DNA of 43,485 nt, from NCBI GenBank assembly GCA_013697915.1, contig JACCVY010000076.1, positions 1-43,485 on the forward strand. The letters are read 5' to 3'. Origin of the DNA: Blastocatellia bacterium. Its GTDB lineage: Bacteria > Acidobacteriota > Blastocatellia > Pyrinomonadales > Pyrinomonadaceae. A model generated the notes under the pieces. It did no database searches. It had not been told where the DNA came from and was given only the letters and a program-made list of their open reading frames with translations. Positions 30,482-37,229 of the stretch are shown piece by piece. The first letter of the stretch is position 1. Every line of letters starts with the position of its first letter. Position numbers and translations under genes: made by a program.

Positions 30482-31831
30482 ATGAAGACAGAGTTTGTTG
30501 ACGTCTCTCCAACACGTAAAGAGATAAAAATTGAGATTGACCCGGCGGCGATCAAGCAGAGCTATGACGAGGTAAGCGATCGTTATGCGAAACAAGCGAG
30601 CGTGCCGGGCTTTCGTCCAGGCCACGCGCCACGTGCGGTTGTGCGCAATCGCTTCAAAAGTGAGATTCGCGCCGAAGTATTACAGCAACTGATTCCGGAC
30701 GCGGTAAATCAGGCGATAGACAAGCACGAGTTGAATGCCATTAAAGAACCCGATGTCGAACTCGAAAATGCTGCCGGACTGGAAAAGTTTGGCGAGGAAC
30801 CCATCTCGGTCAAGGTCAACGTCGAAGTTTTGCCGAAAGTTGAAGTGCAAAACTACAAAGGGCTGGAAGTAGCTCGCCGCGTTCGCCCAATTACCGATGC
30901 GAACGTGGACGAAATGTTTGACGCTTTTCGCGAGACGTCGGCGGCCATGCAGCCCGTTGAAGATCGCGCCTCCGCGACCGGCGACACCGTTACCGTAAAT
31001 TTAGTGGGCAAGTTTTTGGACATTCCGGACCAGGAAGATCTCAAGGCCGACGACGTAGAAGTAGAGCTCGGCGGTCGAGGGGTGCAAACGGAGTTCACTG
31101 AAAACCTGACTGGCGTGAAGGCAGACGACGAAAAGATTTTCACCGTTAGTTATCCGGAAGATTTCAAATCAGAAGGACTGGCCGGCAAGCGGATTGAGTA
31201 CACGGCAAAGGTCACCGCCGTGCGCGTCAAGGAACTTCCCGAGATAGACGACGAATGGGCCAAAAGCCTGGGCGAAGAGTTTGACTCGGTAGCCACGTTG
31301 CGGACAAAAATTCGCGAGGACCTGGAAAAGCGCGCGACCCAGGAGTCTGATCATCGCCTGCGCGCCGACTTGATGTCCAAACTTCTCGAGCAGAACCAGT
31401 TTGAAGTGCCGCAGAGTCTGATCGATCAACAAACCAGTCGCCGCTTGGAATCCATCGTTCGCGACATGATCGGACGAGGCGTCGATCCTCGCAATCAGCA
31501 GCTCAACTGGGAGGCCGCACGGGAAGAGTTGAAAGCCCAGGCGGAGGCTGATGTGCGCAGCACATTGCTGCTTGAGCGCATTGCGGATGAAGAAAAGATC
31601 GAAGTGTCGAATGAAGACATAGACGCCGAGATTGATGCTATCGCATTGAGCTCACAACAACCGATTGAACAAGTGCGAGGTGTCTTGACAAAGGATGGAG
31701 GCGAACGTAGCATCGCGCACAGGTTGCGCAACCGCAAAGCGCTTGATCTTCTGGTCGAAAACGCGAAGGTCGCCGAAGAAGAGTGGAGCGAAACTGAGGA
31801 GACAGAAGTCAGGAGTCAGAATTCAGAATGA
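30482..31831 (+). CDS. tig: Trigger factor (ribosome-bound chaperone, peptidyl-prolyl isomerase)
   Basis: Binds the ribosome exit tunnel and helps nascent chains fold. The 449-residue protein has normal length. The N-terminal ribosome-binding domain (1-110) has the signature SVPGFRPGHAPRAVVRNRF; the FKBP-like PPIase domain (about 150-245) starts near ASATGDTVTVNLVGKFLD; and the C-terminal helical arms domain has LRTKIREDLEKRATQESDHRLRADLMSKLLEQNQFEVPQSLID. The last residues, EVRSQNSE, are encoded by a degenerate short repeat that continues past the stop, so the natural C-terminus has been altered. It leads the tig-clpP-clpX-lon cluster, an order that is common in bacteria. Confidence 0.97.
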   Translation: MKTEFVDVSPTRKEIKIEIDPAAIKQSYDEVSDRYAKQASVPGFRPGHAPRAVVRNRFKSEIRAEVLQQLIPDAVNQAIDKHELNAIKEPDVELENAAGLEKFGEEPISVKVNVEVLPKVEVQNYKGLEVARRVRPITDANVDEMFDAFRETSAAMQPVEDRASATGDTVTVNLVGKFLDIPDQEDLKADDVEVELGGRGVQTEFTENLTGVKADDEKIFTVSYPEDFKSEGLAGKRIEYTAKVTAVRVKELPEIDDEWAKSLGEEFDSVATLRTKIREDLEKRATQESDHRLRADLMSKLLEQNQFEVPQSLIDQQTSRRLESIVRDMIGRGVDPRNQQLNWEAAREELKAQAEADVRSTLLLERIADEEKIEVSNEDIDAEIDAIALSSQQPIEQVRGVLTKDGGERSIAHRLRNRKALDLLVENAKVAEEEWSETEETEVRSQNSE

Positions 31832-31900: not shown

Positions 31901-32485
31901 ATGGCTCTAGTTCCCATGGTCGTCGAGCAAACGTCGCGCGGCGAACGCGCCTTTGATATTTTCTCGCGACTGTTGAAAGACAACATCATTTTTCTCGGCA
32001 CCCCTATCGACGATCAAATCGCAAATCTGATCGTGGCCCAGCTTCTCTTCCTCGAAGCAGAAGATCCCGAGAAAGACATCAACATCTATATTAATTCGCC
32101 GGGTGGTTCGATCACCGCGGGCATGGCCGTCTACGACACGATGCAATTCATCCGGCCGGACGTCACCACGATTTGCGTGGGCCAGTGTGCGTCAATGGGT
32201 GCTTTGCTTTTGGCGGCGGGCGCAAAAGGCAAGCGGTTTGCACTGCCCAACTCTCGCATTCTCATCCACCAGCCGAGCGGCGGCTCGCAGGGACAGGCGA
32301 CTGATATTCGTATCCAGGCGGAGGAAATTCTCCGCATGCGCGAACTGACTTCGCAAATTATTGCCAAACATACCGGCCAAACGTATGAAACTGTCGAGCG
32401 CGACGTGGAGCGCGACAAAATAATGTCTGCCGCCCAGGCCAAGGATTATGGTTTAATAGACGAGGTGATTGCCCACCGCGAGTAG
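31901..32485 (+). CDS. clpP: ATP-dependent Clp protease proteolytic subunit ClpP
   Basis: A 194-residue serine peptidase that forms the tetradecameric chamber fed by ClpX or ClpA/C. The catalytic triad is in place: Ser98 in [10 protein letters not shown], His123 in ILIHQPSGG and Asp172 in [13 protein letters not shown]. The first residues [25 protein letters not shown] correspond to the cleaved propeptide plus N-terminal loop. The ATG lies in the tig-clpP gap of 69 bases, with AAAGG 12 bases upstream. It is followed after 24 bases by a free ClpX-type zinc-finger gene, then by clpX. Confidence 0.98.
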
Positions 32486-32509
32486 AGGTGGACACACCCC
32501 GAGGTTGCG

Positions 32510-32731
32510 ATGATTGCAAAAATGAAAGCGCGCGGTGTCCGTTGCTCATTCTGCGGCGTGTCCAATGGCGAAGTGGCTAACATCGTCGCCGGCACACCGC
32601 AGCATGCGAGCGGCGTTCCGAAAGGTATGATTGGCAAGAGCGCCTTCATCTGTAACGAATGTGTTCAGCGCTATCGCGCCCTGATTGCGAATCCCGAAAC
32701 TCCCAACCAGTCCCTGACAGTTCCCAAATAG
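32510..32731 (+). CDS. Stand-alone ClpX-type C4 zinc-finger protein
   Basis: A 73-residue protein consisting almost only of a zinc-binding domain like that at the N-terminus of Clp[18 protein letters not shown] (residues 12-28) and [16 protein letters not shown] (44-59) mirror [17 protein letters not shown] and [16 protein letters not shown] of the ClpX encoded next door, with four zinc cysteines (C12, C15, C49, C52). About 15 extra residues are inserted between the two halves. No AAA+ domain follows. GAGG lies 5 bases before the ATG. It sits 24 bases behind clpP and 38 bases before clpX on the same strand, so it is made with them. The ClpX zinc domain dimerises and binds substrates and adaptors; a free copy could compete with it or act as an adaptor. 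That role is inference. Confidence 0.9.
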
Positions 32732-32769: not shown

Positions 32770-34014
32770 ATGGTTAGACGAACCGACGACACACTGCGCT
32801 GTTCCTTCTGCGGTAAATCGCAGAACGAAGTCAAAAAGCTCATTGCCGGCCCAACCGTCTACATCTGCAATGAGTGCATTGACATCTGCAACGAAATCAT
32901 CACCGACGATCAGCAGGCAGAGTCGGTAGCAACTCGTCCGCCGCTGCCAAAGCCCGGCGAGATCAAAAGTTTTCTCGATGAGTACGTTATCGGGCAGGAT
33001 GAAACAAAGAAGCGACTGGCGGTCGCGGTCTATCAGCATTACAAGCGCATCGAGCTGGGCCGCCGCCGCGCCGATGTTGAGATCCAAAAAGCAAACATTC
33101 TGTTGATGGGCCCCACCGGCACAGGCAAGACGCTGCTGGCACAAACGCTGGCGCGCATGCTGAGTGTTCCCTTCACCATTGTTGATGCCACCACGTTAAC
33201 CGAGGCCGGTTACGTCGGCGAAGACGTCGAAAACATCATTCTGAAATTGCTGCAAGCGGCAAACGGCGACGTCGAGCGCGCGCAACAAGGCATTATTTAT
33301 ATCGACGAAATCGACAAGATCTGCCGTAAGGACGAGAACCCGTCGATTACCCGCGATGTCTCGGGCGAAGGCGTGCAACAGGCGTTGCTGAAAATCCTGG
33401 AGGGCACGATTGCGAATGTCCCACCCCAGGGCGGACGAAAACATCCGCATCAGGAGTTTTTCCCGATTGATACCGCCAACATTCTTTTCATCTGCGGCGG
33501 GGCTTTTGTAGGCCTTGAGAAAGTAATCGGGCGCCGGCTGCGCAATAAGTCGCTCGGCTTTCAGGCAGAAGTTAAGACCGGAAGTCATCGCCACGCCGAA
33601 GCGCTGGCGGCTGTGCAGCCGGAAGACCTGATTCGTTTTGGTTTGATTCCGGAGTTTGTCGGCCGCCTGCCGGTCTGCGGTGTTTTGCACGAACTCGACG
33701 AGGACGCCCTAATCAAGATTCTTACCGAACCAAAGAACGCGCTGGTCAAGCAGTATCAGAAGAAATTTGATTTTGACAACGTCAAACTCAAGTTCACCGA
33801 AGATGCTTTGAAAGCCGTCGCCAAGCAGGCAGTCGAACGAAAAGTCGGCGCGCGAGGCTTGATGATGATTCTGGAAGAGTTGCTTTTAGACGCAATGTAC
33901 ACGTTGCCTTCGCAAAAGCGCGTAAAAGAGTTTGTTATCACCAGCGAAATGGTCGAGCGCCATCGCGCTGTTCCGGGCGAGGGATTGGCGGGTATTGATG
34001 GTGCGGCCGCCTAG
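32770..34014 (+). CDS. clpX: ATP-dependent Clp protease ATP-binding subunit ClpX
   Basis: AAA+ unfoldase that recognises tagged proteins and threads them into ClpP. With the ATG at 32770 (AAGGAG about 16 bases upstream; the longer frame to 32659 overlaps the upstream gene) it has 414 residues. The C4 zinc finger is at 11-40 (C11, C14, C33, C36), Walker A GPTGTGKT at 114-121, Walker B IIYIDEID at 175-182, sensor-2 GARGL at 360-364. The ClpP-contacting loop reads LGF (262-264) in place of the usual IGF, a mild change. It follows the zinc-finger gene by 38 bases and is followed by lon. Confidence 0.98.
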
Positions 34015-34202: not shown

Positions 34203-36632
34203 ATGGAAGAATATTCAGATCGCAGCCCTGCTGACGTTGCCTGGTATCCGATGGTGCCGATTCGCGACGTTGTAATTTTCCCGTTCACAAAAGTTGCTTT
34301 TAAGATTGGACGCGCGGGCTCGGTGCGCGCGCTTGAGCAGGCGCTTGCAGCCGATCGTACTATCTTTCTCGCCACTCAACACGACGCCACGATTGACGAG
34401 CCGGTACCGGATCAAATTTACGACGTGGGTACGCTCGGCCGGATTCTGCAGTCGCAAAAGCAGGATAACGGCCAGATCAAAGTCGTCGTGGAAGGGCGCG
34501 AACGCGCCACCACCGTGCGCATTGAAAACACCGACGGCACTTTTATGGCGCTGGTAAAACGCGCGCCGGTAGTTAACGAAGACGGCACGCGCCTCGACGC
34601 GCTGGTGCAGAAGATTGGCCAACTGGTCGAACAACATCTGCGTCTGGCGCCGGAAGCGCAAACCGATGCTCTGCAAACTGCGCTTCGTAATCAAAATCCT
34701 TCGCATCTTGCTGATGCGCTTGCTTCGCAGCTGCGCATTTCCGTTGAAGACAAACAGGGATTGCTGGAATTGTTTTCCTCCCAGGCCCGTCTGCAGCGCT
34801 TGATTGAGTTGCTCGAGCTTGAGATCGAGAAACGCCAGCTCGATCGCACCATCCAAACGCGTGTGAAACGCCAAATGGAGAAGGCGCAGAAAGAGTACTA
34901 CCTCAACGAACAAATTAAAGCGATTCACAAAGAGCTGGGCCGCAAGGACGAGAAAGCCGAACTCGAAGATCTGAAGAAAAAGATCGAAGAGGTCGGCATG
35001 ACAGAAGAGGCGAAAACCAAGGCAATGCAGGAACTGCATCGGCTGGAAGCCATGCCGCCGATGTCCGCGGAAGGGACTGTGTCGCGCACCTACATCGACT
35101 GGCTGGTGAGCGTGCCCTGGAAACAGAAGTCAAAAGAGATCAAAGACCTGAGCAAGGCGGAAGAAGTTCTCAATGAAGATCACTTCGGCTTGGAAAAGAT
35201 CAAAGAACGCATCCTTGAATATCTCGCCGTTCGCCAACTGGTAAAGAATCCCAAGGGCTCGATTCTCTGCTTCGTTGGCCCGCCGGGAGTCGGCAAAACC
35301 AGTTTGGGCAAATCGATTGCCCGCGCGACTGGGCGAAAGTTTGTGCGCCTGTCGCTCGGTGGAGTGCGCGACGAAGCCGAGATTCGCGGCCATCGCCGGA
35401 CCTACATCGGAGCGTTGCCGGGACAGATTGTTCAGATGATGAAGAAAGCGGGAACGATTAACCCGGTACTGTTGCTTGATGAAGTCGACAAACTCGGCGC
35501 CGATTTTCGTGGCGACCCGAGCGCGGCTTTGCTTGAGGTTTTGGATCCGGAACAGAACCACACGTTCCAGGACCACTACCTTGACGTTGAGTACGATCTG
35601 TCGAAAGTCTTTTTCATTGCCACTTCAAACGTGCTGCACACGATTCCTCCAGCTTTACAGGATCGACTGGAGATTCTGCGTCTGTCGGGTTACACCGAAC
35701 GCGAGAAGCTGGAGATTGCGAAACGCCATCTGGTTCCGAAACAAGCCGAAGCCAATGGCCTGAAAATGGAGCAGTTCGACTTTACGGACGAAGGCCTGTT
35801 GGAAGTTATCCGGCACTTTACTCGTGAATCCGGCGTGCGCAATCTTGAGCGCGAGATTGGTTCATGCTGTCGCAAACTCGCCCGTCGCATTGTGGCCGAC
35901 ACTGTCACCGAAGAGCACAAGGAAACTGTAGACGCTGCTCGCGTTCGCGAGATGCTTGGTCCAATTAAGTTTCGCCAACAAGGCGTCGCTGCCGAAAGCG
36001 AAATTGGACTTGCAACCGGACTGGCCTGGACCGAGGTCGGCGGCGAAGTTCTGCAGATCGAAGCAACCCTTACCAAGGGCCGCGGCGGTGTAATGCTGAC
36101 GGGTAAGCTGGGCGACGTCATGCAGGAATCGGCGCAGGCGGCGCTGACTTGCATCAAGGCGCGCGCAGAGCGCTTAGCGATGAGCATTGACTTTATTCGC
36201 AAGCGCGATTTGCACATTCACGTTCCCGAAGGCGCCATTCCTAAAGATGGACCATCGGCCGGAATTACCATCGCCACCGCAATGGCGTCGGCCCTGGCGC
36301 GCACGCCCGTTAGAAAGAACGTAGCGATGACCGGCGAAATAACCTTGCGCGGTCGCGTGTTACCCATTGGTGGCGTGAAAGAGAAACTGCTTGCCGCGCA
36401 TCGCTTCGGCATCGACACCATCATTCTGCCCAAGGACAATGAAAAGGATTTGCCGGAGGTTCCGGAAGAAGTTCGCAACGCGCTCTGCATCAATCTGGTA
36501 GAGACGATTGATGAAGTGTTGGCGCTTGCGCTCGAAGATGCCTGTCCAACCGACGCCGGTGCTCCGGATGAAGCCAAAGCGCCGCCGCTCTGGACCACGG
36601 AACCGCCCTCGCAAGGCATTCAAACAAGCTAA
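34203..36632 (+). CDS. lon: ATP-dependent protease Lon
   Basis: A cytosolic AAA+ protease for damaged and regulatory proteins. At 809 residues it has the usual LonA length. The N-terminal substrate-binding domain (1-200) starts with [14 protein letters not shown]; a coiled middle region follows ([20 protein letters not shown] at about 220-240). AAA+ Walker A GPPGVGKT is at 359-366, Walker [12 protein letters not shown] follows, and the peptidase domain has PKDGPSAG with Ser685 and GGVKEK with Lys728, 43 residues apart as in E. coli Ser679/Lys722. The C-terminal 25 residues are Pro/Ala-rich. It lies 188 bases after clpX. In the gap are only a hairpin-like GCAGACGCAAGTCTGTG and no clear promoter. 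Confidence 0.98.
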
Positions 36633-36761: not shown

Positions 36762-37229
36762 ATGAGTAAACATGACGATGCGGATCTAATTCTGAAACTT
36801 TACGACTTGAGACGAGAAACAACCATGCGAGAAGCCCGCAACTGGATGTTCGGCTTTAATCCGACAACGGTGCAGGACGTTATCGATGTGCTCCTTAGCG
36901 AGCATAGCGGTCATTACCGGATGGTGATTTCCTATTGGGACATGGCTGCCGCGATGGTCAACAATGGCGCCATTGACGAAAAGTTGTTCAATGAAACTAA
37001 CGGCGAGCACTTGTTTGTCTATTCCAAGATCGCCCCGCTCATCCCGGAAGTGCGTGCGTTGTTTGGTAACCCTGAGTTTCTAATGAACCTCGAGACACTG
37101 GTGAAGCGAGTTCCCGACTATGAGGAAAAGATCACCGCCATGCGCGAGCGCATGAAACGATTTGCTGCCATGCGCGAAGAACGCACTGCGAAGGTGCAAG
37201 CGGCGGCGACTGCGACGTCCGCTTCCTGA
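36762..37229 (+). CDS. Conserved-looking protein of unknown function
   Basis: A 155-residue cytoplasmic-type protein, mostly helical: ADLILKLYDLRRETTMREARNWM, then TVQDVIDVLLSEHSGHYRMVISYWDMAAAMV, NNGAIDEKLFNETNGEHLFVYSKI and a long C-terminal helix, YEEKITAMRERMKRFAAMRE, ending in an Ala/Thr/Ser-rich tail. GGAGG 8 bases before the ATG supports the start. The pattern (helical bundle with SYWDMAAAMVNNGAI and an F-G-N-P-E-F loop) faintly recalls the DUF4760 type, but I am not sure. It lies between lon and engB; co-transcription with either is possible. Confidence 0.8.
   Translation: MSKHDDADLILKLYDLRRETTMREARNWMFGFNPTTVQDVIDVLLSEHSGHYRMVISYWDMAAAMVNNGAIDEKLFNETNGEHLFVYSKIAPLIPEVRALFGNPEFLMNLETLVKRVPDYEEKITAMRERMKRFAAMREERTAKVQAAATATSAS

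Follow-up and report, generated by a model that had tools for sequence, protein, structure and literature searches.

The window, i.e., the whole stretch of 43,485 nucleotides analysed here (contig JACCVY010000076.1 of a Blastocatellia bacterium of the family Pyrinomonadaceae), carries the genes tig, clpP, clpX and lon, followed by a DUF4760 gene, all on the forward strand and with one additional small gene lodged between clpP and clpX (Table 1). This gene begins with an ATG 24 nt past the clpP stop codon, ends 38 nt ahead of clpX and encodes a free-standing zinc finger of the ClpX type. A GGAG-like element is found in most of the upstream regions of its orthologues (n = 10), with none evident in genomes G029 and G037. 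A consensus scan of the short clpP-finger and finger-clpX gaps revealed neither a promoter-like nor a terminator-like site, so that the finger gene is likely co-transcribed with the clpP-clpX operon; co-expression is inferred from this.

Table 1. Genes and features of the cluster in the window, and loci of double-finger proteins in other genomes (positions within the locus named)
Feature	Position	Strand	Evidence
tig, encoding trigger factor, at the head of the cluster	30482..31831	+	Pfam Trigger_N 3.8e-36, Trigger_C 4.7e-32
clpP, ClpP protease subunit	31901..32485	+	Pfam CLP_protease 2.2e-86
GAGG, probably the Shine-Dalgarno sequence for the finger	32501..32504	+	sequence; 5 nt before ATG
Finger gene: 73-aa protein with a free C4 zinc finger of ClpX type	32510..32731	+	PF06689 39.6 bits; orthologues; purifying selection
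N-terminal octapeptide MIAKMKAR	32510..32533	+	protein nearly invariant, synonymous sites variable (alignment)
First zinc knuckle C12-S-F-C15	32543..32554	+	alignments
14-residue insertion, about residues 30-43, tip of the predicted treble-clef hairpin	32597..32638	+	alignment with ClpX fingers; flanked by AlphaFold2 strands 25-28 and 45-48
Second zinc knuckle C48-N-E-C51, start of the final helix	32651..32662	+	alignments; modelled helix 49-60
clpX, full gene including an N-terminal zinc finger	32770..34014	+	NCBIfam PRK05342.1 646 bits; PF06689 70.3 bits, residues 10-45
lon protease, downstream in the cluster	34203..36632	+	translation; homologues with 80-83% identity in syntenic loci
DUF4760 protein gene, standing alone	36762..37229	+	PF15956 2.2e-23
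Double-finger locus L200	2865..3164	-
Double-finger locus L201	3063..3371	+
Double-finger locus L202	2843..3178	-
Double-finger locus L199

The protein matches the Pfam family zf-C4_ClpX (PF06689) with 39.6 bits against a gathering cut-off of 27 (E 4.8e-10), in two stretches with an insertion between them, and has the CSFC...CNEC cores in common with the neighbouring ClpX. The original prediction, which saw here a free copy of the ClpX finger devoid of the motor, is borne out by this match, while the 15 residues that it gave to the insertion need correction: the cysteine pairs are separated by 32 residues, compared with 18 in the neighbouring ClpX, so that the insertion amounts to 14 residues. 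By the same 14 residues the protein departs from the usual PF06689 spacing, which is typical of the family and not strictly defining. All four cysteines (C12, C15, C48 and C51) are present in the window protein and in 8 of the 9 unbroken orthologues, the ninth, from G037, having C15 replaced by tyrosine. The ClpX models NCBIfam TIGR00382 / PRK05342 give 18.1 bits, with an equivalog cut-off of 370.75, and there is no AAA domain; judged by its sequence, the protein is no ClpX but a relative of PF06689 whose spacing is atypical. A mis-called start or a fragment of clpX is ruled out, since a complete clpX with its own finger lies downstream.

When ClpX fingers were added to the input alignment, AlphaFold2 predicted a strand-strand-helix layout with a pLDDT of 72. 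The best Foldseek matches of this model are the E. coli ClpX fingers 2ds5 and 2ds6 with a probability of 1.00, but with an E value of 0.04 and from an alignment that included ClpX fingers, so that the likeness is partly circular. The N-terminal domain of ClpX itself (PF06689; E. coli structures 2ds5, 2ds6 and 1ovx) shares with the window protein the CxxC...CxxC arrangement, the CSFC and (F/Y)ICNEC cores, the Phe16 position and, tentatively, the treble clef predicted by the model. The window protein differs from this domain in lacking the AAA+ motor and in having the hairpin insertion and a conserved N-terminus of its own, and the fifth cysteine of ClpX (C43) is a tyrosine in 9 of 10 insert-type fingers.

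Ten further Pyrinomonadaceae genomes have an insert-type orthologue in the clpP-clpX gap, with 55-90% identity where the gene is unbroken. Among the sampled genomes of the window's genus in which the clpP locus is available, 9/14 carry the insert-type gene (one of them, that of G066, frameshifted by one base close to the end of a contig) and 5/14 are cleanly without it, their clpP-clpX gaps measuring 36-63 nt. In a tree of clpP and clpX, the window's clade, which includes genus g29 and has a support of 100, carries the gene in all ten of its sampled genomes. The outlier is G037, which belongs to another clade and whose insert-type gene has lost the second cysteine (CSFY). Two short peptide patterns, which diverged copies could escape, were scanned against 84,980 species genomes and placed the insert type at 10 loci, all of them in Pyrinomonadaceae or related Acidobacteria MAGs; the matches examined outside these groups were all full-length ClpX. 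The gene is dispensable, being absent from the same-genus sister clade and from most of Pyrinomonadaceae. Absence from relatives and frequent frameshifts had been named beforehand as signs against a regulator, and they apply in part, through these absences and the single frameshifted copy of G066, yet retention in all ten sampled genomes of the window's own clade is complete.

Purifying selection on the finger gene is clear from its pattern of substitution. Variable sites are distributed over codon positions 1/2/3 as 38/34/68, and the closest orthologue pairs have a dN/dS of 0.07-0.21, more distant pairs being saturated at synonymous sites. Constraint is strongest on the N-terminus and both halves of the finger, and the tail is little constrained: pN/pS is 0.15 for residues 1-11 (pN 0.106 vs pS 0.698), 0.18 and 0.20 in the two parts of the finger, and rises to 0.37 in the insert and 0.79 in the tail. 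In the orthologue alignment, parts of the hairpin loop are nearly invariant, as is the N-terminal octapeptide. Taken together, the ten same-place copies, the codon-position skew and the low dN/dS rule out a chance ORF. Two further origins or roles were considered and set aside: a search of phages yielded no close insert-type relative that would point to a mobile or phage origin (the best matches had less than 40% identity and E values of 0.01 or higher), and PADLOC gave no match that would point to anti-phage defence.

A Pfam scan of 119 Pyrinomonadaceae genomes, combined with gene context, recovered other free ClpX fingers. By our own count, 18 of the 26 free fingers in these genomes sit in the tig-clpP-clpX-lon cluster. 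In other genera of the family, fingers without the insert occupy the clpP-clpX gap in G006, G011, G012 and G454, and a free finger lies between lon and the DUF4760 gene in G014, G028 and G007, its place in G014 and G028 being judged from lon and from the next conserved gene, yihA. Single free fingers are found elsewhere in the genome in G010, G011, G012 and G015, and double-finger proteins, outside the cluster, in G005, G454, G455 and G067. Among 199 sampled Acidobacteriota genomes, extra PF06689 matches are rare outside Pyrinomonadaceae. The family-wide pattern of free fingers is stronger than the single gene. The double-finger proteins, which belong to genus g6 and to G067, consist of tandem ClpX-type fingers, measure about 100-112 aa and are encoded away from clpX. 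In G007, the post-lon DUF4760 protein carries a ClpX finger as an in-frame fusion at its N-terminus (L203 2301-2945, minus strand). The stretch taken from G057 (L193) encodes a second, diverged ClpP homologue of about 43-45% identity, and no clpX match was seen in that stretch.

The post-lon finger of G014 (L196 4023-4463, minus strand) is identical to the ClpX finger at 33 of 35 residues, which makes it look like a recent partial duplication of clpX, and the copy in G454 resembles the start of its own clpX. Given partial copies such as that of G014, duplication of the 5′ end of clpX seems to recur in Pyrinomonadaceae. This leads to the main caution, which is that births beside the parent clpX make the position of a free finger explicable without any function, so that the place of the window's gene could reflect tandem duplication alone. 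The finger gene would then be a relic under drift, or would serve a role unrelated to ClpXP, and the losses of the gene, the lost cysteine and the frameshift are, like the repeated partial copies, in keeping with this. Drift of the insert type is, however, opposed by the dN/dS values and by full same-place retention in one clade, which leave a ClpXP-unrelated role unaffected; overall, we consider a relic or an unrelated role rather unlikely.

At the positions that we take to correspond to Phe16 and Ile46 of E. coli ClpX, the numbering being placed on the free finger from the known ClpX sequence, the phenylalanine is kept in 10/10 insert-type orthologues and the second residue is hydrophobic (L, M or I) in 9/10, the remaining one, in G029, being a lysine. 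In E. coli, these hydrophobic-pocket residues are required for the boost that trigger factor gives to lambda-O degradation; they overlap the site of lambda-O binding, and this part of the ClpX finger also binds SspB and RssB (PMC7804408). The E. coli finger folds and dimerises in isolation (PMC9035409). A kept pocket, a finger able to dimerise on its own and a gene cluster shared with clpX, through which production would keep step with ClpX, could all serve a decoy that merely titrates adaptors, trigger factor or substrates away from ClpX and so sets a threshold for ClpXP activity, with no new binding function. Such a plain decoy would need neither the nearly invariant N-terminus nor the conserved loop, and we regard it as unlikely.

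The N-terminus has also been considered as a degradation signal. Its first residues, M-I-A-K-M, resemble the N-motif-1 degrons of ClpX, of which Dps STAKL and lambda-O TNTAKI are examples (PMC9775585), and the finger protein might accordingly be a substrate or pseudo-substrate of ClpXP, i.e., a self-limiting regulator that the protease removes. MIAKMKA stays nearly invariant despite free synonymous change, and the strict version of the N-motif-1-like pattern occurs in just 1 of 114 long ORFs sampled. The motif is, however, degenerate and was defined in E. coli; the first residue of the finger protein is not polar, and the motif was picked after seeing the sequence, which makes it a lead only. 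Altogether, a substrate role appears improbable.

With the pocket kept and a conserved N-terminus and loop added, the most fitting reading of the protein is that of an additional docking module, either adaptor-like or competing. The explanation that we favour, tentatively, is an action on ClpXP in trans, the protein serving as an extra N-domain with an adaptor-like effect. The finger gene encodes a diverged copy of the zinc-binding domain at the N-terminus of ClpX, in which the AAA+ motor was not retained; its product, probably made from the clpP-clpX operon, would fold as a ClpX-type treble clef and could associate with ClpX, either by dimerising with the finger of ClpX or by binding the same ligands. 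The N-terminal octapeptide and the hairpin loop might then recruit certain clients or adaptors, trigger factor among them, or keep them away. The domain match, the Foldseek matches within their limits, the position in the cluster with its short gaps, the same-place orthologues, selection, the pocket residues, the dimerisation of the isolated E. coli finger and the share of free fingers lying in the cluster speak for an N-domain acting in trans; the absence from the sister clade and from most of the family, the cysteine loss in G037, the frameshift in G066, the lysine in G029 and a ClpX finger that looks the same whether or not a genome has the free one count against it, and so does the possible birth by tandem duplication. 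The original interpretation is supported in part: the motor-less finger in the clpP-clpX gap is conserved and under selection, and mixed dimers with ClpX, blocking of adaptors and adaptor activity are proposed modes of action. As regards the family as a whole, it is possible, if on balance doubtful, that free ClpX N-domain paralogues in the tig-clpP-clpX-lon cluster, repeatedly born from partial clpX duplication, constitute a new kind of ClpXP regulator that would retune client choice by mixed dimers or by competition.

The proposed action on ClpXP via the ClpX finger recalls that of SspB, RssB and trigger factor, the last encoded in the same cluster (PMC7804408). Each of these known adaptors is a different protein docking on the ClpX finger, whereas the window protein is of the finger type itself. 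A free copy of the docking domain, conserved and encoded in the same cluster, would be a simple built-in means of changing the clients of ClpXP, and the apparently repeated births in one family provide natural variants with which the role of the ClpX N-domain could be tested. A literature search covering a minority of the subscription journals found no paper describing the mode of action of free ClpX fingers.

As a class, free ClpX fingers are already annotated, coliphages included. The name 'ClpX C4-type zinc finger protein', which the original prediction had anticipated for similar genes, is given by PGAP to a 110-aa E. coli prophage protein (WP_001163782.1), and a match to its gene is found in 109 of 5426 E. 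coli genomes; the phage family phrog_6797 belongs to the same class. The PHROGs families that match this prophage finger are mostly without assigned function. Like the window's protein, the phage finger is short and has a single ClpX-type finger and no motor; unlike it, the phage finger is encoded among phage genes and not between clpP and clpX, lacks the insertion and carries a long extension at its N-terminus. In coliphage PhiR44_2 (L213 1824-2156, plus strand), a 110-aa protein with one C-terminal ClpX finger (phrog_6797) is encoded downstream of replication endonuclease and partition genes.
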